Shown here: positions 36,028 through 47,121 of the stretch, in pieces
Position numbering within the stretch: position 1 is the stretch's first letter
Layout of the letters: each line of letters opens with the position of its first letter
Virus record (IMG/VR): IMGVR_UViG_3300025085_000037
Span: 1 to 50,470 of that record
Direction: 5' to 3' (one strand)
From: a virus
DNA length: 50,470 nucleotides
Made by a program: the position numbers and the translations under genes
Notes under the pieces: model-generated
The model's input: only the letters and a program-made list of their open reading frames with translations
What the model was told of the DNA's origin: nothing
The model's database searches: none

Positions 36028-36351
36028 TCAATTTACGTGAATGACACCAGTCATACCTGCGCCCTGATGAGGACCACAAAAGAAATTATAGTCACCTGCA
36101 TCAGCAAATACAACGTCTTGTGTTTCACCAGGAGCAAACAGTAATGCTTCTCTGGAAAGATCTGGACGTGCCTCAACAATAATATTGTGAGGAGGTAGTG
36201 CTTCATTCATAAAATGCACTGTGTCCCCTGCTGAGATAGTAATCTCATTTGGTTCAAATACTAGGTTGCCATTATGACCCATTGATACATCTACCGCCCA
36301 TACAGGAGCAGCAAAAAATAGTGCAATGAAAAATGTAACTAAGACTTTCAT
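36028..36351 (-). CDS. petE: Plastocyanin
   Basis: 107 residues. Signal peptide MKVLVTFFIALFFAAPVWA, then a cupredoxin domain. Copper ligands: His in ALPPHNIIVEA near 53 and Cys/His/Met in NFFCGPHQGAGMTGVIHV near 90-106. The mature protein (about 88 residues) is slightly shorter than cyanobacterial plastocyanin. It carries electrons from cytochrome b6f to PSI in the thylakoid lumen, so it matches the ferredoxin and D1 encoded here. I see no strong ribosome-binding site; a GTAGTT/AACTAC hairpin immediately precedes the ATG. Confidence 0.95.
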   Translation of the reverse strand: MKVLVTFFIALFFAAPVWAVDVSMGHNGNLVFEPNEITISAGDTVHFMNEALPPHNIIVEARPDLSREALLFAPGETQDVVFADAGDYNFFCGPHQGAGMTGVIHVN

Positions 36352-37694: not shown

Positions 37695-37876
37695 GTAAGT
37701 ATGATTTCGGGGGTCTTGACAGACACCCCGCTAATGTGCTAAGATTAATCAGTGAGTTAGAAGGGTCTTATCAACTTTGTAAGTGGATGGGATTTGAAGA
37801 GGATATGAAAGTCCTTGATGAAATGAAGAAACCTTATTACAAACTTTATTTCAAACTCAAACGAGAGCAAGGGTAG
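37691..37876 (+). CDS. Small hypothetical protein ending in a tRNA gene
   Basis: 61 residues: MSKYDFGGLDRHPANVLRLI, a helical body and a Lys-rich end. The TAG stop is made from bases 4-6 of the tRNA-Tyr gene. A sigma-70 promoter for the tRNAs lies inside it. Function unknown. Confidence 0.6.
   Translation: MSKYDFGGLDRHPANVLRLISELEGSYQLCKWMGFEEDMKVLDEMKKPYYKLYFKLKREQG
37716..37745 (+). promoter_or_regulatory. Early promoter for the tRNA cluster
   Basis: TTGACA (37716-37721), an 18-base spacer, TAAGAT (37740-37745), inside the coding region just before tRNA-Tyr. Confidence 0.6.
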
Positions 37877-37952
37877 GTGTCCGAGTGGTTAATGGAGGTG
37901 GACTGTAAATCCACTGGCTCTGCCTACGGGGGTTCAAATCCCTCCCTGCCCA
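37871..37952 (+). tRNA. tRNA-Tyr (anticodon GTA)
   Basis: Acceptor GGGTAGG (37871-37877) pairs with CCTGCCC (37945-37951), with A as discriminator. The anticodon stem GTGGA/TCCAC encloses CTGTAAA. A long variable arm (class II) and a GGGGGTTCAAATCCCTC T-arm are present. CCA is not encoded. Confidence 0.95.
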
Positions 37953-37956
37953 CTCT

Positions 37957-38030
37957 GGTTCAGTAGCTCAGCTGGATAGAGCAACTGCCTTCTAAGCAGT
38001 CGGTCGTTGGTTCGAGTCCAACCTGAATCG
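37957..38030 (+). tRNA. tRNA-Arg (anticodon TCT)
   Basis: Acceptor GGTTCAG pairs with CTGAATC, with G as discriminator. The anticodon stem ACTGC/GCAGT encloses CTTCTAA. The D-arm GCTC-AGCTGGATA-GAGC and a standard T-arm are present. It reads AGA/AGG codons, common in AT-rich phages. Confidence 0.95.
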
Positions 38031-38031
38031 T

Positions 38032-38113
38032 GTGACGGGGAATGAGCTCGCCCGCGACGGTGCTAACCACACTGTGATCTAGAGAGTTGGTTACTTTCTT
38101 CTTGCTCCGTTAC
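38032..38113 (+). ncRNA. Candidate structured RNA between tRNA genes
   Basis: GTGACGGGG (38032-38040) can pair fully, with G-U pairs, with CTCCGTTAC (38105-38113). Inside, TAACCA plus ACT (38064-38073) pairs with AGT plus TGGTTA (38085-38093) as a nine-base-pair hairpin with one bulge, and CCG/CGG makes a short second hairpin. The result is a compact three-way junction of tRNA-like size, but there is no T-arm or anticodon, so it is not a normal tRNA. No open reading frame is evident. Prediction by eye only. Confidence 0.45.
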
Positions 38114-38173
38114 AAACTGTCAGTATGTTGGGTGTAGTGCCCCATAGCAAGCATATCGATAAGTGTAATGTAT

Positions 38174-38245
38174 GCCTCCGTAGCTCAGTGGTAGAGCAGG
38201 GCTTTTGTAAAGCTCAGGTCGCAAGTTCAAATCTTGTCAGAGGCT
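38174..38245 (+). tRNA. tRNA-Thr (anticodon TGT)
   Basis: Acceptor GCCTCCG pairs with CAGAGGC with one mismatch, discriminator T. The anticodon stem GGGCT/AGCTC encloses TTTGTAA. The D-arm and T-arm GCAAG-TTCAAAT-CTTGT are intact. Confidence 0.95.
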
Positions 38246-38267
38246 TTGGAACTATAAGTTCCATCAT

Positions 38268-38339
38268 TCCCAAGTAGCTCAGTGGCAGAGCCGCCGACTG
38301 TTAATCGGCTGGTCGCTGGTTCAAATCCAGCCTTGGGAG
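38268..38339 (+). tRNA. tRNA-Asn (anticodon GTT)
   Basis: Acceptor TCCCAAG pairs with CTTGGGA, discriminator G. The anticodon stem GCCGA/TCGGC encloses CTGTTAA. The T-arm GCTGG-TTCAAAT-CCAGC is perfect. Confidence 0.95.
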
Positions 38340-38356
38340 TTTATAAATTTTGCGAC

Positions 38357-38998
38357 ATGAACGTTACTAATTCAAACGAACTAGATAAATTTCCCTATAT
38401 ACTAGTCGATGATTTTTATGACTGTTCTGAGTTATATAAAATCTGGGAAGAGTTAGATTACTTGTGTGATCCTAGAATAATATCTAGGTCTAGCATTGAA
38501 AACGGTGGGTCGTGGGAGTATGATGAGTGTGGTAATAAAAAATTACTGAAACATAATTGGACTATGTGGTTAGACTCTTACTTTAAAAGTGATCGAAGTA
38601 GTTCAAATATTTTAAATGCAAATAGAAAATTATTTAACCACAGTAATTTATTTACAGATCATCCTCATTGGTTGATTAATGATGTCACTGCAATTCAAAA
38701 AGATCATACACAAATTGCTTATTATGAAAATGATGATGAGTATAAAGTTCATCGAGATCTCTGTCGTTTAACTTGCCTTACTTGGTTCTTTCGTGAACCG
38801 AAAAAATTTACCGGTGGTAATTTGCAGTTCCCTTTATTCGATACTGAGATTGAATGTAGAAACAATCGAATGATTATTTTCCCTGGTGCAGTTCCTCATG
38901 CAGTAACTAAAGTTTGTATGGAGGAACAACATAAAGAACAAAAACTCGGTAGATTTGTGATGGTGCAACTACTCAAACTTGACTACAAACCCATTTAG
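38357..38998 (+). CDS. 2OG-Fe(II) oxygenase-like protein 3
   Basis: 213 residues from the ATG at 38357; an in-frame upstream ATG at 38282 is inside the tRNA-Asn gene. The N-terminus KFPYILVDDFYDCSELYKIW is the usual entry to the fold. Iron site: YKVHRDLCRLTCLTWFF near 132-148 (H-x-D) and MIIFPGAVPHAVTKV near 178, with R in GRFVMVQ near 203. FTGGNLQFP is the usual turn between them. The substrate is unknown. A tRNA-Val promoter overlaps the 3' end. Confidence 0.8.
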   Translation: MNVTNSNELDKFPYILVDDFYDCSELYKIWEELDYLCDPRIISRSSIENGGSWEYDECGNKKLLKHNWTMWLDSYFKSDRSSSNILNANRKLFNHSNLFTDHPHWLINDVTAIQKDHTQIAYYENDDEYKVHRDLCRLTCLTWFFREPKKFTGGNLQFPLFDTEIECRNNRMIIFPGAVPHAVTKVCMEEQHKEQKLGRFVMVQLLKLDYKPI

Positions 38999-39007
38999 GG
39001 TTATAAT
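38979..39007 (+). promoter_or_regulatory. Promoter for tRNA-Val
   Basis: TTGACT (38979-38984), a 17-base spacer, TATAAT (39002-39007), overlapping the end of the oxygenase gene, 19 bases before tRNA-Val. Confidence 0.7.
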
Positions 39008-39025
39008 ATTATCATCGCCAGTATT

Positions 39026-39097
39026 GCTCGAATAGCTCAGCGGTAGAGCACCTCCTTTACACGGAGATTGTCGGGGGTTCGATCCCCTCTTCGAGCA
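39026..39097 (+). tRNA. tRNA-Val (anticodon TAC)
   Basis: Acceptor GCTCGAA pairs with TTCGAGC, discriminator A. The anticodon stem CCTCC/GGAGA encloses TTTACAC. The T-arm GGGGG-TTCGATC-CCCTC is intact. Confidence 0.95.
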
Positions 39098-39122
39098 TGG
39101 TTCATTACCTCCTACTAAATAA

Positions 39123-39374
39123 ATGAAATCAGAAAAGATCAAAGAAGAACTCAACGATATTAAACTTGAACTTGCTTACATGAGAGGTATGTTAGAAAAT
39201 GTTAGTCATCAGATGCAAGAGTTGCGGGAAGCAGCTGGAATCCCATCCAACGAAAACACGAGCTTGCCAGTGCGAGAATTGTACGAGCATCCGTGGTATA
39301 AGTATAAGCGCGAGCAACTTGTCTCTAGTGGAAATTGTCAGCAATCCGAAGGAGACGATCTCTCCGACATTTAG
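39123..39374 (+). CDS. Coiled-coil protein overlapping a zinc-ribbon-like gene
   Basis: 83 residues: MKSEKIKEELNDIKLELAYM starts a coiled coil of about 38 residues. The last 176 bases overlap the next gene in another frame. The unique 76-base start has coding-like composition, so it is likely expressed, but the C-terminal part could be constrained mainly by the other frame. Function unknown. Confidence 0.5.
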   Translation: MKSEKIKEELNDIKLELAYMRGMLENVSHQMQELREAAGIPSNENTSLPVRELYEHPWYKYKREQLVSSGNCQQSEGDDLSDI

Positions 39375-39447
39375 TGCTGAAGATTTAGCATATCAAGAGA
39401 CACGTCGCCAAAGAAAAGTACGCAAACTTGATTTTGATATTAAGTAA
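39199..39447 (+). CDS. Small zinc-ribbon-like protein (DUF7695-like)
   Basis: 82 residues. MLVIRCKSCGKQLESHPTKT then RACQCENCTSIRG has a C-x2-C...C-x-C-x2-C pattern, followed by a segment I recall as typical of the DUF7695 phage family. The family assignment is from memory. The gene starts inside the preceding one. A metal-binding small protein of unknown role. Confidence 0.7.
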   Translation: MLVIRCKSCGKQLESHPTKTRACQCENCTSIRGISISASNLSLVEIVSNPKETISPTFSAEDLAYQETRRQRKVRKLDFDIK

Positions 39448-39450
39448 ATT

Positions 39451-39981
39451 ATGAAATCTCCCATACAAATACCCACTGCATTAGCAGTGCCTGAGTTCAT
39501 TAGTATAAATGATGAACTCAAAGTATGGATACAAGGACAATCTACAGGTAATGATAGTAAATTATTTTTTCGGATAGTTGATCCGACAAGTTGTTTATCT
39601 CTCTACAATGCAGCGATAAATTTAAAACTTAAGATGAAGAAGCATCTTAAAAAAGATATTACCTTAGTCCGAATTAATACTAATGGTAAAGTCTTCGGAT
39701 CTCCCGCTCATTTTCATACTGATTATAGTAAACCATATTATTATACTGTAGTATTGTTTACTGAATTAAGTTGGGATACTCAATGGGGTGGTGAACTTGT
39801 AGTTCAAAATCCAACCAGTGGAGAATATCATTACCATGCATATATCCCCAACAATGCTGTATTCTTTCCTTCTAATTGGAACCACTGTGGGTTTTCTCCA
39901 AATAATTTCACATGTAAAATGAGAAGTAGTGTAGCATTTTCTTACATTGAAACTGAATATCTAGATCAACATGTGTTATAA
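39451..39981 (+). CDS. 2OG-Fe(II) oxygenase-like protein 4
   Basis: 176 residues. SPAHFHTDYSKPYYYTVVLF near residues 87-106 carries H-x-D, QWGGELVVQNP follows, and VFFPSNWNHCGFSP near 138-151 supplies the second His, with R in KMRSSVAFSY near 159. The fold and spacing match prolyl-4-hydroxylase-type oxygenases. The substrate is unknown. Starts three bases after the zinc-ribbon gene stop. Confidence 0.8.
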   Translation: MKSPIQIPTALAVPEFISINDELKVWIQGQSTGNDSKLFFRIVDPTSCLSLYNAAINLKLKMKKHLKKDITLVRINTNGKVFGSPAHFHTDYSKPYYYTVVLFTELSWDTQWGGELVVQNPTSGEYHYHAYIPNNAVFFPSNWNHCGFSPNNFTCKMRSSVAFSYIETEYLDQHVL

Positions 39982-39982
39982 T
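39974..39982 (+). promoter_or_regulatory. Extended -10 promoter
   Basis: TGTTATAAT (TGnTATAAT) overlapping the oxygenase stop, 24 bases before the next ATG. No clear -35. It resembles the ferredoxin promoter at 8262 (both preceded by TG-rich sequence). Confidence 0.5.
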
Positions 39983-40006
39983 TAGTAATGTATTTTTCAT
40001 ATAGAA

Positions 40007-40225
40007 ATGAATCACCAAAATATTCTTCGTAAATTTCCTGAAGATATTGCACTCCTCAGTGATGCTGTTGATGGAGTTGTAAATCTTGAAGATGATTATC
40101 CATATCTTTACAAAAGACTTTATGAGTTTTATGATGTTAATGGTCTACAACTCTTTGGTGACCCTGACGATGACTATCAGGTGGTCCTGACCCAACTCGA
40201 ACGAGACCTTGACAGCATCGCCTGA
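40007..40225 (+). CDS. Small acidic hypothetical protein
   Basis: 72 residues: MNHQNILRKFPEDIALLSDA, then a very acidic segment (VVNLEDDYPYLY, GDPDDDYQ). Soluble. The 3' end contains the -35 box of the next promoter. No family recognised. Confidence 0.6.
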   Translation: MNHQNILRKFPEDIALLSDAVDGVVNLEDDYPYLYKRLYEFYDVNGLQLFGDPDDDYQVVLTQLERDLDSIA

Positions 40226-40237
40226 ACCTGCTATCAT
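40209..40237 (+). promoter_or_regulatory. Early sigma-70 promoter
   Basis: TTGACA (40209-40214), a 17-base spacer, TATCAT (40232-40237), 27 bases before the ATG at 40264. Confidence 0.7.
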
Positions 40238-40263
40238 TACAGAGTAAATCAAAGGCATCATCG

Positions 40264-40542
40264 ATGAATGATCTTGACCCAAAGTCCGTAGCATCGACTA
40301 AGACTACGGTTGTCCATGAGCGTTTTCCTTACCGCTATGTGCAAAAGGGTTACATTCAACTTAATGGTAAACCCGATTTGCGTCTTCAGAAGGCAGACGA
40401 GTATACTAAAAAATACTCTGACATTTATCTCTTTGATAATGCCGATCAATGTTTTCTTGCTATAGAAGACTTTGAGTATTCTAAGTGGTTAGATCCCGCT
40501 GGTGTCCCTTGCTATGTAAAAGATGTCGCTCAACAACACTAA
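40264..40542 (+). CDS. Small hypothetical protein
   Basis: 92 residues: MNDLDPKSVASTKTTVVHER, then FPYRYVQKGYIQLNGKPDL and DIYLFDNADQCFLAIEDFEY. Mixed alpha/beta composition, no membrane segment. Early promoter immediately upstream. Function unknown. Confidence 0.6.
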   Translation: MNDLDPKSVASTKTTVVHERFPYRYVQKGYIQLNGKPDLRLQKADEYTKKYSDIYLFDNADQCFLAIEDFEYSKWLDPAGVPCYVKDVAQQH

Positions 40543-40882
40543 TTTAAAGTTTAACAACCAAACAGAATTCGTTCCTGCTAACCCTACTAAATTTACAAAT
40601 ACTATGACTACTCACGACCACCTCGCTGCTGCTGAGAAAGAACTTCGTCTTGCTCTCGCATCAGTAGTTGAAACAGCATCACCTGTTCGTCTCACTAGAC
40701 TTATTCATGTTCTTGATACTGTCAATGATATCAAGCAAGGATTTGTTTCCAATGAAACTACTGCTGCCCCTACTACAAACTTTGTAATCAATACTTCCGA
40801 TACTGTTGATTATGGTTATGGTGCTGCTGGTCCTGTAGATTATCCTAGTTCTTTCGGACAAGATGTAATTACATTCTCGTAA
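40523..40882 (+). CDS. Hypothetical protein with helical core
   Basis: 119 residues from the ATG at 40523, which overlaps the preceding gene by 20 bases; an ATG at 40604 (MTTHDHLAAAEKELRLALAS) would remove a polar leader and could be the true start. The core has two helices (LAAAEKELRLALASVVE, LTRLIHVLDTVNDIK), then a Gly/Tyr-rich tail. No family recognised. Confidence 0.55.
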   Translation: MSLNNTNLKFNNQTEFVPANPTKFTNTMTTHDHLAAAEKELRLALASVVETASPVRLTRLIHVLDTVNDIKQGFVSNETTAAPTTNFVINTSDTVDYGYGAAGPVDYPSSFGQDVITFS

Positions 40883-40888
40883 TTATTC

Positions 40889-40999
40889 GTCACGGATGGA
40901 CGTTAACAGCACTGGTGCGGGTGAAGATATCGCTGCCTGGTTTCTTGTTTCCAGTTAAAGAACAAGTGGCGTGCATGTGCTCCGGGGTGTGACAACCCC
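40889..40999 (+). ncRNA. Candidate structured RNA before tRNA-Gly
   Basis: GTCAC (40889-40893) can pair with GTGAC (40989-40993). That second strand lies in the loop of a GGGGT/ACCCC hairpin (40984-40988 with 40995-40999), making a pseudoknot possible. GGA (40894-40896) pairs with TCC (40981-40983), extending the long-range helix. A CTTGTT/AACAAG hairpin sits inside. Frames here are short. It occupies the same position relative to a tRNA as the 38032 element. Prediction by eye only. Confidence 0.4.
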
Positions 41000-41003
41000 A
41001 ACT

Positions 41004-41074
41004 GCGGGATTAGTTTAGAGGCAAAACTAAAGGTTTCCAACCTTTCGTCATCGGTTCGATTCCGATATCCCGCT
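41004..41074 (+). tRNA. tRNA-Gly (anticodon TCC)
   Basis: Acceptor GCGGGAT pairs with ATCCCGC, discriminator T. The anticodon stem AAAGG/CCTTT encloses TTTCCAA. The D-stem GTTT/AAAC is weak but complete, and the T-arm ATCGG-TTCGATT-CCGAT is perfect. Confidence 0.95.
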
Positions 41075-41862: not shown

Positions 41863-44379
41863 ATGTCAAGAATATTAGTTGACGAACTAGTAAATTTAGC
41901 AGGAACAGATAAGGTAACCTTTGCTGAAGGTCTGAAAGTTACTGCAGGAGAAGCACTTGATCTTAATGGTGCGAAAATTAACATTGATACCGGAGTAGGT
42001 TTAGATAATCAACTGTTAGCATCTACTGGATCTGGTCTTAAGTGGGTCACTATTGGTGATACGAATAGCACTTATGCATTTTCATCAGTTGCTGCAGCCT
42101 CAAATGATGTTAAGTTGAAACTAACTGGTGGTGGTGATGCTGCTGGATATACAGATCAAGTAACATTTACTGGAACTGGAACTATAACTGTTCTTGAAAA
42201 TGCTGGTGTTATTACGATCAATGGAAGCGATCAGAATACTACTTATGATTTAGTAGCATCCACGGTAAGTGGTGGAGCACAACTTACATTAGCAGGAACT
42301 GATTCAAGTAATGATATATTTTCAATCTTAGGTGGATCTAATATTACAGTTGCCCGAAGTGGAACTGATATTACAATCTCCACATCATTATCAGGAACAG
42401 TTGGAGCACCTTCAACAACTACAGATGGTGGGTTTGCATTATTTGATGGTACTGATGGAACTCTGCTGAAGAATTCTACATTAGTTCTTGATAGTAGTAA
42501 TAATCTAACAGGTTTAAATGATATTGGCGTAAATGATATCACTGCAAATAGTATTAGTACTGCTGCAGGTACAGGAAATTTAATTACATTCTGGTACGAC
42601 CAGCAGGCAAATTTCCCTAATGCTAATACTTATCAAGGTGCTTTTGCATACTCTGATAACAACAGTACCATGCATTATTCTGCTGGTAATTCTTGGTATC
42701 AGGTAGCAAAGATTGGTGATATTGTTCCTAACACTGACACCACATATTCTATTGCTTTAACAGGAACTGGCACATTAAGTCTCAATGATTCCAATGGAAT
42801 TGCTGACTCAGTAACTTTCCAATCGAGTAGTTATGGTGGTGCTGGAGTTTTTAGATCTGGCGAAAACTTATATATTGACAGTAAAGTTTATGATATCTCA
42901 GCACAAGTTGGTCCTGGAACAGGAACTACTCTTAGATTAAGAGGTGCTAATCATGATGCTGGAGGTAACGAAGTTAGCATCGTAAACGATGACATTCTAC
43001 TTACTGGTGCTGATGGTTTAACAGTTGAGTTAACTGATGCTAATACAATTACCTTTAGGCAGAGTGGAGGTAGTGGAACATCTTATACTGATAACGATGC
43101 TAAAGATGCTGCAGCACAGGCACTTCTTAATGGAACATCATTAGGCATTTCATTCTCTTATGATTCTGGTAATAAAACTATCAGTGCTCAGGTAGGAACA
43201 GTTCCTACTGCATTCAGTATTTCTCTGGCAGCACAGACTGACAATTATTTATTTACTGGTTCGGATCGCGGTAATACTTATTCAAGTGATCCTGATCCTA
43301 GCATTGTATTATATGAAGGTGATACAATTACTTTCACTAACACTGTTAATATAAATCATCCTCTGTATATCAGAGTAAGTGATGGTGGTGCTAGTGTTTC
43401 TAGTCCTGCTGCTTCTGGTGAAGGTACTGCAACAACTTCGTGGACTCCTACGACTGCTGGTACATATTATTATCAGTGCTCTAATCATCCATTAATGGTC
43501 GGAACTATCACAGTTCTTTCTACTGGTGGTGGCGGTGGTGGTGGATCATCAGTTCTGTATGATCTTTACGGAACTAATACCACATCAAATAATGTTTTCC
43601 TGAACCTTGATCCTTCAGTAGGAACAACAGATCAGATTGAATTTGCTGGTGGCGGTGATACTAGCGTCTCATGGGATGCTATTAATAAAAAAGTAACACT
43701 TTCCAGCACTGCTCCAGTCCAATCGGATTGGGATGCTACTTCTGGATTAGCACAAATCCTCAACAAACCATCTATTCCTGCTGCTTATACATTACCAGCA
43801 GCATCAGCATCATCACTTGGTGGTGTAATTCCTGATGGTACTACTATTACAGTAGATGGTAGTGGAAATATTTCTGCCGCGCCTGGTGGATATATATTAC
43901 CCCAAGCTGCTAGTAATATTTTAGGTGGCATCAAAATCGGTTCTGGATTATCGATTGATGCTGGTGGAGTTGTTAGTGTTGCTTCTGGTGGATCTGTAGG
44001 TCTTCAGGCAAGGGCAGAGGCTCATGGAACTACTGCATCACTTGCTGATAATGAAACTGAGAACCTAAATATAACAGCACATAAAGCATATATATTGCTA
44101 TACATCGAAACTGATGAAGAAGCATGGGTGAGAGTTTATACTGATGATGCTTCTAGAACAGCTGATGCTAACAGAAGCGAGGGTAGTGATCCTGCTGCTG
44201 GTTCTGGAGTTATCGCTGAGACCAGAGGAACAGATGTAATTTGGTTATCTCCAGGTGTAATCGGATACAATGCCGACACACCAAGTGCTACTGATACAAT
44301 GTATCTAGCAGTAACAAATCGTAGTGGAAGCACTAATTCAATTCACTTACACGTTAATTTAATCAGACTAGAGGCATAA
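41863..44379 (+). CDS. Large tail-fibre/adhesin-like protein with cupredoxin-like domain
   Basis: 838 residues. The N-terminal MSRILVDELVNLAGTDKVTF module is shared with two smaller downstream proteins and probably anchors to the particle. The body is Thr/Gly/Asp-rich beta repeats (DLNGAKINIDTG, DSSNNLTGLNDIG). Residues about 450-552 form a cupredoxin-like unit with NINHPLYIRV and YYYQCSNHPLMVG, giving His, Cys, His and Met as in type 1 copper proteins (C-x2-H-x2-M, amicyanin-like). A poly-Gly linker follows. Function in host binding is inferred from size, composition and late promoter. Confidence 0.65.
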   Translation: MSRILVDELVNLAGTDKVTFAEGLKVTAGEALDLNGAKINIDTGVGLDNQLLASTGSGLKWVTIGDTNSTYAFSSVAAASNDVKLKLTGGGDAAGYTDQVTFTGTGTITVLENAGVITINGSDQNTTYDLVASTVSGGAQLTLAGTDSSNDIFSILGGSNITVARSGTDITISTSLSGTVGAPSTTTDGGFALFDGTDGTLLKNSTLVLDSSNNLTGLNDIGVNDITANSISTAAGTGNLITFWYDQQANFPNANTYQGAFAYSDNNSTMHYSAGNSWYQVAKIGDIVPNTDTTYSIALTGTGTLSLNDSNGIADSVTFQSSSYGGAGVFRSGENLYIDSKVYDISAQVGPGTGTTLRLRGANHDAGGNEVSIVNDDILLTGADGLTVELTDANTITFRQSGGSGTSYTDNDAKDAAAQALLNGTSLGISFSYDSGNKTISAQVGTVPTAFSISLAAQTDNYLFTGSDRGNTYSSDPDPSIVLYEGDTITFTNTVNINHPLYIRVSDGGASVSSPAASGEGTATTSWTPTTAGTYYYQCSNHPLMVGTITVLSTGGGGGGGSSVLYDLYGTNTTSNNVFLNLDPSVGTTDQIEFAGGGDTSVSWDAINKKVTLSSTAPVQSDWDATSGLAQILNKPSIPAAYTLPAASASSLGGVIPDGTTITVDGSGNISAAPGGYILPQAASNILGGIKIGSGLSIDAGGVVSVASGGSVGLQARAEAHGTTASLADNETENLNITAHKAYILLYIETDEEAWVRVYTDDASRTADANRSEGSDPAAGSGVIAETRGTDVIWLSPGVIGYNADTPSATDTMYLAVTNRSGSTNSIHLHVNLIRLEA
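43210..43518 (+). repeat. Cupredoxin-like domain, copy 1 of a duplicated segment
   Basis: Encodes residues about 450-552 of the 838-residue protein. The stretch from LYIRVSDGGASVSSPAA to TTAGTYYYQCS is near-identical in the next protein (45067-45396), including most nucleotides, which indicates duplication or gene conversion. Confidence 0.75.
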
Positions 44380-47121
44380 ATGGCAATTCTTAAGAACACA
44401 GTTCAAGTAAATAGCGGCAATACTGGTTGGACTAGATCCAATGTTCTGGATGCCTTAGAAGAAACAATCGCTGACCTTGGATGGAACAGTGGTTCGCAAG
44501 TAAATGGCGTTGTTACTTCACTAGCTCATCCATCATCTCCTGATGCTGTTTGGGGTTCGTACCGCAATAGCGGAATCAGCACGAATTGGAACATGGTAGG
44601 TGGTCCTGGTATCACTATGAGACCAATCGCAGCACATTATTATAGTGTTGATGATAGCGGAACTGCATATGTATTCCAGAAATTTTATCCTGCTACTTAC
44701 TCTACAACCGATACTTTATCGCTTGGTGGTATTACTGATCTTAGTGTAGGAGATCCTTTAGTTTGGAGAACATCTACCACTAACACAGTTGCTCTTGGTT
44801 CTCTAAGTGATGGTGATACGGTTTATGTAGCTGAGAATCCGAGTTATACAATTGCTCAATATGGTTGGATACAACTTGCTCCTACTGAGGCTGATGCTAT
44901 TGCGGGAACTAATCTATTTTCGTTCAACACCAGTGGCATCAACGGGGAATGGAGATTTTATGATCCCGCTCATACTGATAACACTCAGTTGATGTCAGAC
45001 GTTAATCAAGGTGATGTTTTACATTTTACACATAATGATAACTTTCCGAGTGCAAAGGGGGGAACTCTTCCTATCACAGTTAGCATGACTACCAATAGTG
45101 GAGATGGTAGTGATTATGATATTTCAGGAACAGATCGATCTAATACTTACACTAATGCATCAGATCCTGGTATTGCAGTTTATGAGGGTGACACAATCAC
45201 CTTCGATAACTCTGCTTTAGGCGGAAATCACCCAATGTACATCAGGGTATCTGATGGCGGTGCTAGTGTTTCAAGTCCTGCTGCTACTGGAGAAGGCACT
45301 GATACAGTTTCGTGGACTCCTACTACTGCTGGTACATATTACTATCAGTGTAGTGTTAGTGGTCATCAAGGGATGATTGGAACCATCACAGTTACTGCTG
45401 CTCCCACAGGCGATTCTGCTATCACAGCACATCCTTTATGGTTCCAGGATGCTCCCGGTGCTTATGATAGTACTAGAACTATTGAATCTGAAGTTAATTA
45501 TGTCTCGATTAGTACTTCTTATAGACGTTTCCCTACTTTGGACTATGGATACATTGGTGGAGCGACAGATCTTTCTTGGGATACAAGGGGATGGGAACAA
45601 GACCGAACTTTTTATATAAAATCAGAAAATGATGCCACGTATACAGTATCATTTACATTAAATGTTGCTCCGGGAAGAACTAGTAATGGTACTGGGTATC
45701 TTGAAAATCCTTATTATGACTACACAGTTCCTCAGGATGGTTCTAGATCAGCTTTAAATCTTCGCATTTATAGAGAGGCTGAGGCTACACCATCAAAAAT
45801 TGCTGGTATAAGAGTAATGGATTTGACTAGTACTGGATGGTCTGAGACTGATACCTTTACAATTCCAGGAACAGCAGTGGGTGGCACTTCTCCTACTGAT
45901 GATATTCTGGTAGGTGTCAGTGCTGATGAATCAACTCCTGGTGCTTCTGATGGAACTGCATCTTTGCATGTAACTAACTTTGGTGCTGGGGTAAATGCTT
46001 ATGTAAAAAATCCTGCTGGTAATCAGATAATTTTTAAACTTGAAAATGATGCTACTAAAACTTATGGTACTACATATCAACTAATTGAATTACCGGATGA
46101 TCATACAATTAGATTGGTTGCTGGTTCTAGTGTAAATTTCTTAGGATTTGATCCTAAGAGTAGTAATCAAACTTATAGAGGACGTTGGGGTGGCACCTCA
46201 GGACTTGACTGGTCTGAAAATTATGGGGATCAATTCAGAACTGATAGTGCTGTTGTGAATGTAAATCAACTGGATTTTGCTACGACATCAACACCAACAG
46301 CATATCCCTTGAAAATTGTTACATATAGAGCACAGGCACCACAAGATACTGATTTTGCTATCATTAGTTTCGTTCAGACTATCAATGCTGTTGATACAAC
46401 CTATGCTACATGGTTCTATCACAAAGGAAATAATTATGGAAATGGTATTTGGGACATGGATTATGTATGGCAAGGAGGATTGACGACAATTATTCCTACA
46501 TCAGCTCAAGACTATTCCATAATATTTGCAACATCTAATACTCATCCTGAGGATGGAACTCATGAGCGGGAGGATGCTCAAAGCACTTCATCAGAGCGTA
46601 TTATGAGAGAAGCATTGTTTGGATACTTTAGAAGTCCCTCAGGCAGTAGTTCTTACGGTTATGCTCAATCATATTGGAGTTCCAATATGTGGACAAATCC
46701 TGCTCTGTACAATGCAGAGTCAACTGTAACTCCATATTTCAGACATCATGAATATGATGATGTCGTTCTTAGTAATACGTTTAATTTAGATTATAGAATG
46801 TATGTTGCTAATCAGAATGATTATGAAGCACAGAAAGATAAATCTATGCCTGCTGCAGCGAATTATTATAGACCACTGAAAGGATTACCCATTGATATTA
46901 GCCTTGCCCCATGTCCTTACTATCTACCAGATGATTTTGTTATGATTCCATTTGATATTTCTCCTGGTATGGCTAGCATTAGACCTGGTGATACTGTGAC
47001 AATTAGTGGAAGTGAAGTATACGAAGTTGTTCGTGCTTCATATGAAAATAATGATGAAACCTATGATGGTATTACTGACAATAGAACTAGAGGAATTATC
47101 TTTGCTGCGAGGACAACTTAA
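44380..47121 (+). CDS. Large virion protein, probable fibre or baseplate-associated, with cupredoxin-like domain
   Basis: 913 residues. N-terminus MAILKNTVQVNSGNTGWTRS. Residues about 230-339 hold the second cupredoxin-like unit: GGNHPMYIRVSDGGA and YYYQCSVSGHQGMIGTI, with Cys-x4-His-x2-Met instead of C-x2-H-x2-M. Long beta-rich regions follow (LASTYHKS-type helices absent), and the C-terminal part has RPGDTVTISGSEVYEVVRAS. No enzymatic motif recognised. Translationally abutted to the preceding fibre gene (TAAATG), so co-expressed under the same late promoter. Confidence 0.65.
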   Translation: MAILKNTVQVNSGNTGWTRSNVLDALEETIADLGWNSGSQVNGVVTSLAHPSSPDAVWGSYRNSGISTNWNMVGGPGITMRPIAAHYYSVDDSGTAYVFQKFYPATYSTTDTLSLGGITDLSVGDPLVWRTSTTNTVALGSLSDGDTVYVAENPSYTIAQYGWIQLAPTEADAIAGTNLFSFNTSGINGEWRFYDPAHTDNTQLMSDVNQGDVLHFTHNDNFPSAKGGTLPITVSMTTNSGDGSDYDISGTDRSNTYTNASDPGIAVYEGDTITFDNSALGGNHPMYIRVSDGGASVSSPAATGEGTDTVSWTPTTAGTYYYQCSVSGHQGMIGTITVTAAPTGDSAITAHPLWFQDAPGAYDSTRTIESEVNYVSISTSYRRFPTLDYGYIGGATDLSWDTRGWEQDRTFYIKSENDATYTVSFTLNVAPGRTSNGTGYLENPYYDYTVPQDGSRSALNLRIYREAEATPSKIAGIRVMDLTSTGWSETDTFTIPGTAVGGTSPTDDILVGVSADESTPGASDGTASLHVTNFGAGVNAYVKNPAGNQIIFKLENDATKTYGTTYQLIELPDDHTIRLVAGSSVNFLGFDPKSSNQTYRGRWGGTSGLDWSENYGDQFRTDSAVVNVNQLDFATTSTPTAYPLKIVTYRAQAPQDTDFAIISFVQTINAVDTTYATWFYHKGNNYGNGIWDMDYVWQGGLTTIIPTSAQDYSIIFATSNTHPEDGTHEREDAQSTSSERIMREALFGYFRSPSGSSSYGYAQSYWSSNMWTNPALYNAESTVTPYFRHHEYDDVVLSNTFNLDYRMYVANQNDYEAQKDKSMPAAANYYRPLKGLPIDISLAPCPYYLPDDFVMIPFDISPGMASIRPGDTVTISGSEVYEVVRASYENNDETYDGITDNRTRGIIFAARTT
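45067..45396 (+). repeat. Cupredoxin-like domain, copy 2
   Basis: Encodes residues about 230-339 of the 913-residue protein. It repeats the segment at 43210-43518. The copper-site loop has two more residues between Cys and His (CSVSGHQGM). Confidence 0.75.

Follow-up and report, generated by a model that had tools for sequence, protein, structure and literature searches.

Cupredoxin domains with candidate type 1 copper sites in two fibre-like proteins of a T4-like cyanophage

Analysis of an IMG/VR virus record of 50,470 bases, hereafter the window (the whole stretch of DNA analysed), revealed that two adjacent large proteins each contain a cupredoxin domain in which His, Cys, His and axial Met occupy, by alignment, the canonical positions of a type 1 (blue) copper site. 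We put the probability that a metal-competent type 1 site is present within a structural protein of the phage at roughly three in four, and the metal competence of the site, considered apart from its location, is highly probable. A copper-binding, mainly structural domain is the most likely reading, and a redox or adhesion role is speculative.

The two domains, their setting and their fold

Based on PHROG matches to DNA polymerase, UvsX, DnaB-like helicase, primase, both ribonucleotide reductase subunits, transaldolase, a 6-phosphogluconate dehydrogenase-type gene and PetE, the window was assigned to a T4-like cyanophage. Two large open reading frames, located at positions 41863-44379 (protein 1, 838 aa) and 44380-47121 (protein 2, 913 aa), lie adjacent and head to tail on the plus strand. 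Residues 219-552 of protein 1 match PHROG 677, "baseplate wedge tail fiber connector" (E 5e-17), and protein 2 matches PHROG 27200 and PHROG 677. The original prediction had named both products tail-fibre proteins; this label is indirect, since the PHROG tail matches of both reading frames take in the shared domain, and the tail-fibre identity of the two proteins and their place in the virion are, as judged from sequence, probable.

Translation confirmed that the two proteins share a domain of about 105 residues. Copy 1 (residues 448-555 of protein 1; positions 43204-43527, plus strand) contains the motifs NHPLYIRV and YYYQCSNHPLM, in which His499 (codon 43357-43359, plus strand) is the putative first copper ligand and Cys539-x2-His542-x2-Met545 (43477-43497, plus strand) forms the ligand loop. 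Copy 2 (residues 235-339 of protein 2; positions 45082-45396, plus strand) contains NHPMYIRV and YYYQCSVSGHQGM, with His284 (45229-45231, plus strand) as the corresponding first ligand and Cys324-x4-His329-x2-Met332 (45349-45375, plus strand) as the loop; the column of His284 is invariant in the family alignments A2 and A3. These motifs and the two loop spacings, C-x2-H-x2-M and C-x4-H-x2-M, are those originally described, whereas the description of the copies as near-identical was too strong, their identity being only 65-69%. Cys539 is the sole cysteine of protein 1. A disulphide was considered as the reason for the cysteine and was rejected, since 124 of 143 domain matches hold exactly one Cys.

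As had been stated, the phage also carries a plastocyanin gene, petE, located at 36028-36351 on the minus strand (PHROG 515, E 1.8e-59) and encoding a separate soluble protein of 107 residues. Like the fibre domains, PetE is a cupredoxin with H, C, H and M; PHROG 515 matches copy 2 weakly (E 0.003), and an iterated fibre-domain profile picked up the window PetE with its ligands in the C-x2-H-x4-M spacing. The presence of petE in the same genome would fit an origin of the domains as recent copies of the phage's own gene that became fused to fibre genes. Such an origin is extremely improbable, however: PetE has a PHN motif where the fibre domains have HP instead of HN, the loop spacing differs, the closest relatives found were other fibre domains and Bacteroidetes surface proteins, and in a tree constructed without PetE the two copies fell into different lineages, each common to other phages. 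It was also found that the domains lie within proteins of 838 and 913 aa, in contrast to plastocyanin, which is free-standing, about 100 residues long and has the C-x2-H-x4-M spacing.

Six tRNA genes (Tyr, Arg, Thr, Asn, Val and Gly) were located at 37871-41074, from the petE-side genes to the fibre genes, interspersed with several 2OG-Fe(II) oxygenase-like reading frames. One reading frame with a GTG start (38282-38998) overlaps the tRNA-Asn gene (38267-38340); therefore, its first residues (VNRLVAGSNPALG) represent tRNA read as protein, and its real start is probably further downstream, the remainder being similar to 2OG-Fe(II) oxygenases.

Both isolated domains passed the curated gathering score of the plastocyanin/azurin model of the cupredoxin superfamily (PF00127, 21.2 bits), with 23.4 bits for copy 1 and 21.5 bits for copy 2; the whole proteins scored 20.6 (protein 1) and 16.3 (protein 2), both below this cut-off, and the model also recognised 38 of 63 relatives at E<=0.01. 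When copy 1 was compared with the PDB using phmmer, amicyanin was matched (E 1.1e-5) with all four putative ligands placed on the amicyanin His, Cys, His and Met; the matches of copy 2 were auracyanin A, plastocyanin, rusticyanin and others. A profile of the 63 domains detected 209 PDB sequences at E<=1, the best 60 of which were all copper proteins, and in the printed alignments with these proteins the ligands line up.

The AlphaFold2 models of copy 1 and copy 2 (pLDDT 97.1 and 95.3, respectively) show the Greek-key beta-sandwich of cupredoxins, with the Cys closing one strand and the His and Met situated in the loop preceding the last strand, as in this superfamily. Comparison of both models by Foldseek and VIA-align gave copper proteins as the top matches, the best by VIA-align for both copies being the N-terminal cupredoxin domain of the three-domain nitrite reductase of Hyphomicrobium denitrificans (2dv6, 6tfd, 6tfo): residues 24-134 of 2dv6 were superimposed on copy 1 with Z 11.4 and an rmsd of 2.1 A over 93 residues, and 2dv6 was matched by copy 2 with Z 10.8 and 2.0 A over 91 residues. 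The predicted structures and the profile searches both bear out the cupredoxin-like nature proposed for the two domains, and that both have this fold is practically certain. An immunoglobulin identity was set aside, the Ig Pfam models remaining below their own cut-offs and the best PDB matches being copper proteins.

With amicyanin, a free periplasmic electron carrier classified in PF00127, the phage domain shares the fold and, in copy 1, the H...C-x2-H-x2-M ligand order and loop length, whereas it differs in lying inside large proteins, in having HP and not HN after the first ligand, and in an identity of about 24%. The nitrite reductase domain differs in being tethered to a reductase core and in a ligand loop that is longer when the two are aligned. 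Fold, profile and ligands identify the domain as a cupredoxin; it is not a plastocyanin, and a status as electron carrier is no more than putative.

Conservation of the putative ligands

A set of 110 different domains, with a median pairwise identity of 36%, was collected from two scans of viral contigs and from tblastn searches of isolate genomes. Loss of conservation of the ligands among homologues, which would tell against the original assignment, was looked for and did not appear, as His, Cys, His and Met were all kept in 106 of the 110. The loop spacing among these 106 was C-x2-H-x2-M in 95, C-x4-H-x2-M, as in copy 2, in 10, and C-x2-H-x4-M in the window PetE. Of the four domains that had not kept the ligands, three belonged to a second, diverged family and the fourth was an interrupted domain of S-CAM1.

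Examination of the S-CAM1 domain (L112:2010-2267) revealed that an interruption follows its first half, that the Cys loop is absent, and that the same reading frame contains a YQCTAHPNM loop a short way upstream; substitution of the ligands was ruled out in this case, the Cys half being missing through interruption of the domain. Members of the second family, characterized by HPFRFSETQDG...YYYCxxHxxM, were found in the same long fibre proteins (L065:2297-2632, L070:1875-2213, L086:2309-2653 and others). Most of them have H, C, H and M, a few are without these residues (R/C/Y/Y, L or Q variants), and four members tested gave no Pfam match.

Site rates were analysed for 101 sites in 94 main-family sequences, a set defined without the second family, PetE and the interrupted domain. 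The six slowest sites were M545, H499, H542, Y537, G486 and C539, and the four ligands were invariant in all 94 sequences. The chance that four pre-named sites all fall among the top six is 15/4,082,925 (3.7e-6), a figure that applies to pre-named sites because the amicyanin alignment had fixed the four ligands beforehand. Conservation of the Cys and the preceding Tyr is partly ascertained, since the pattern of one scan, which supplied most of the sequences, contained both; that of His, His and Met is free of such ascertainment, and no pattern of this kind was used in the search that yielded the isolates. Together with the alignment to amicyanin, the retention of His, Cys, His and Met in distant homologues agrees, at the level of sequence, with their prediction as a type 1 ligand set.

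It is possible to regard the domain as an inert beta-sandwich spacer of cupredoxin fold that holds no metal in the virion. Its placement amid repetitive fibre sequence, the weak sub-threshold matches to Ig-like Pfam models and the few related domains without ligands in the diverged second family are compatible with this, and because some second-family domains have lost the ligands, the fold can probably stand without them. Nevertheless, the four ligands rank with the best-conserved sites of the whole domain in pairs of sequences down to about 12-25% identity, in which most positions vary, and an inert spacer would hardly preserve a lone Cys together with His, His and Met. We consider the spacer quite unlikely; the sequence evidence speaks for a metal site that is strongly selected for within a structural domain.

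In plastocyanin and azurin the site is steadied by an Asn adjacent to the first His, a feature that is not universal among cupredoxins. In the phage domain this place is taken by Pro, both in the two copies and in 89 of the 94 sequences, so that the classic plastocyanin/azurin arrangement was not found, and the properties of the site may differ from those of classic electron carriers because Pro replaces the usual Asn.

Carriers of the domain and their presence in virions

In isolates, gp9-type "baseplate wedge tail fiber connector" proteins carry the domain at their C-terminus, as in S-RIM8, ACG-2014b, ACG-2014d, S-SSM4, S-SSM7, S-MS29 and others; it is also present within fibre-like or hypothetical proteins from P-SSM2, P-TIM68, the podovirus P-SCSP2 and an actinobacterial lake phage. 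A single tblastn query detected it in 161 phage records, cyanophages nearly throughout. The gp9-type connectors of T4-like cyanophages (PHROG 677) end in the same cupredoxin domain with the four ligands, whereas these connectors are about 245-500 aa long in the isolates examined, compared with 838 and 913 aa for the window proteins, whose role is putative. Predicted viral structures of the same fold bear names such as "Immunoglobulin domain-containing protein" and "Peptidase S8/S53"; among the matches listed, a type 1 copper protein name was attached to one giant-virus protein only. Cellular relatives, as recovered by a pattern-limited genome scan, were mainly from marine Bacteroidetes, in which the ligands were kept in nearly all and the domain was often the last part of proteins containing bacterial surface repeats. 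It was also noticed that in the Actinomycetia phage DSL-LC01 (L102:2140-3507) the copper-site domain is fused to a YHYH domain (PF14240), the gene adjoining collagen-like genes and a tryptophan halogenase.

Virion presence has been demonstrated for a relative. S-SZBM1_206, which has a T4_gp9_10_N domain (PF07880) at the N-terminus and the HCHM domain with all four ligands at the end, was identified by mass spectrometry in CsCl-purified virions with 9 peptides and 24.9% coverage (PMC9146016). As S-SZBM1 is reported to be without long tail fibres, its proteome bears on the baseplate carrier only. Another carrier, S-SCSM1_231, is annotated "virion protein", and a virion proteome of S-SCSM1 obtained by mass spectrometry has been published (PMC9602691). 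For the two window proteins, we infer presence in the virion. The cryo-EM paper on P-SCSP1u describes the fibre N-terminus as a jelly-roll and the distal fibre as unresolved; in it cupredoxin, Ig-like and gp33 do not appear and copper is named only as the grid, so that the paper is neither for nor against the domain.

Putative metal and role of the site

As we read it, the cupredoxin domain is a mobile extracellular module of marine tailed phages, above all T4-like cyanophages, used in baseplate (gp9-type) and fibre proteins; its fold, ligand set, conservation and spread are established computationally. In the mechanism we propose, a mononuclear type 1 copper site would arise where loops at one end of the beta-sandwich place the His of the NHP motif close to Cys, His and Met from the final loop. 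Virion assembly takes place in the cytoplasm, which contains little free copper; the site would therefore acquire its metal, as Cu(I) or Cu(II), at lysis from the broken cell or else in seawater. The copper supply in the cyanobacterial cytoplasm during assembly is doubtful, and zinc may occupy the site first. The bound metal would mainly fix the ligand loops and hence stabilise an exposed fibre or baseplate domain.

Copper is the most likely metal because the ligand set and loop are typical of type 1 copper proteins, to which the nearest relatives of solved structure also belong, and we infer that it is probably, though with some reserve, bound in virions. It is also conceivable that the site holds another metal in nature, most likely structural zinc. 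In favour of zinc, type 1 sites can take Zn(II) when the protein is produced in the cytoplasm, and this is where phage structural proteins are synthesized and where copper is tightly buffered; against it stand the conserved axial Met and the C-x2-H-x2-M loop, both typical copper features, as well as the solved relatives among the matches listed, which are copper proteins. On balance a metal other than copper seems unlikely.

As to the role of the domain, a mainly structural one is our tentative choice, at slightly less than even odds; a role in adhesion or redox is rather unlikely, and one other than structural, adhesion or redox is doubtful, if a little less so. Electron transfer or copper-dependent contact with the host surface is possible but speculative. 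In a more specific form, the copper site would work in infection, by redox or copper sensing at the cell surface or by docking on a copper or electron-transfer protein of the host, and would control adsorption or triggering. The occurrence of the domain in gp9-type baseplate and fibre proteins of cyanophages, whose hosts possess plastocyanin, is in keeping with this, whereas the same domain in marine Bacteroidetes and an actinobacterial phage argues against any tie to photosynthetic electron transfer. Precedent for metal in a fibre is provided by T4 gp37, which contains iron, and by the "Trojan Horse" idea (PMC11705849); T4 gp37 and marine phage fibres with HxH motifs resemble the present case in having metal sites in a phage fibre, but differ in that octahedral iron is held by paired His and not by a mononuclear cupredoxin site. 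We regard a function of the copper site in infection as improbable, and it is a similarly long shot that copper uptake or reduction at the host surface alters fibre stiffness or docking and thereby gates adsorption, with the particles acting as a copper-binding pool in seawater.

The open literature searched, a body of work that mostly leaves out subscription journals, yielded no description of type 1 copper sites in structural proteins of phages; for members of the family, no metal analysis, spectrum or solved structure was found. For annotation, the result carries a warning that a PF00127 match on a viral contig may represent a structural protein and not a petE-type metabolic gene. Since many marine viruses have this copper-site domain in their baseplate and fibre proteins, their particles may carry copper, to judge from the shared residues. 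T4 gp9 is present as six trimers per particle; a gp9-like protein arranged in this way would by itself contribute about 18 sites to each particle, if copper is bound. In that case, a widespread group of marine viruses would possess metalloprotein sites in the machinery of host contact and, if true, this would have a bearing on the trace-metal chemistry of the sea, in parallel to the "Trojan Horse" idea for iron.
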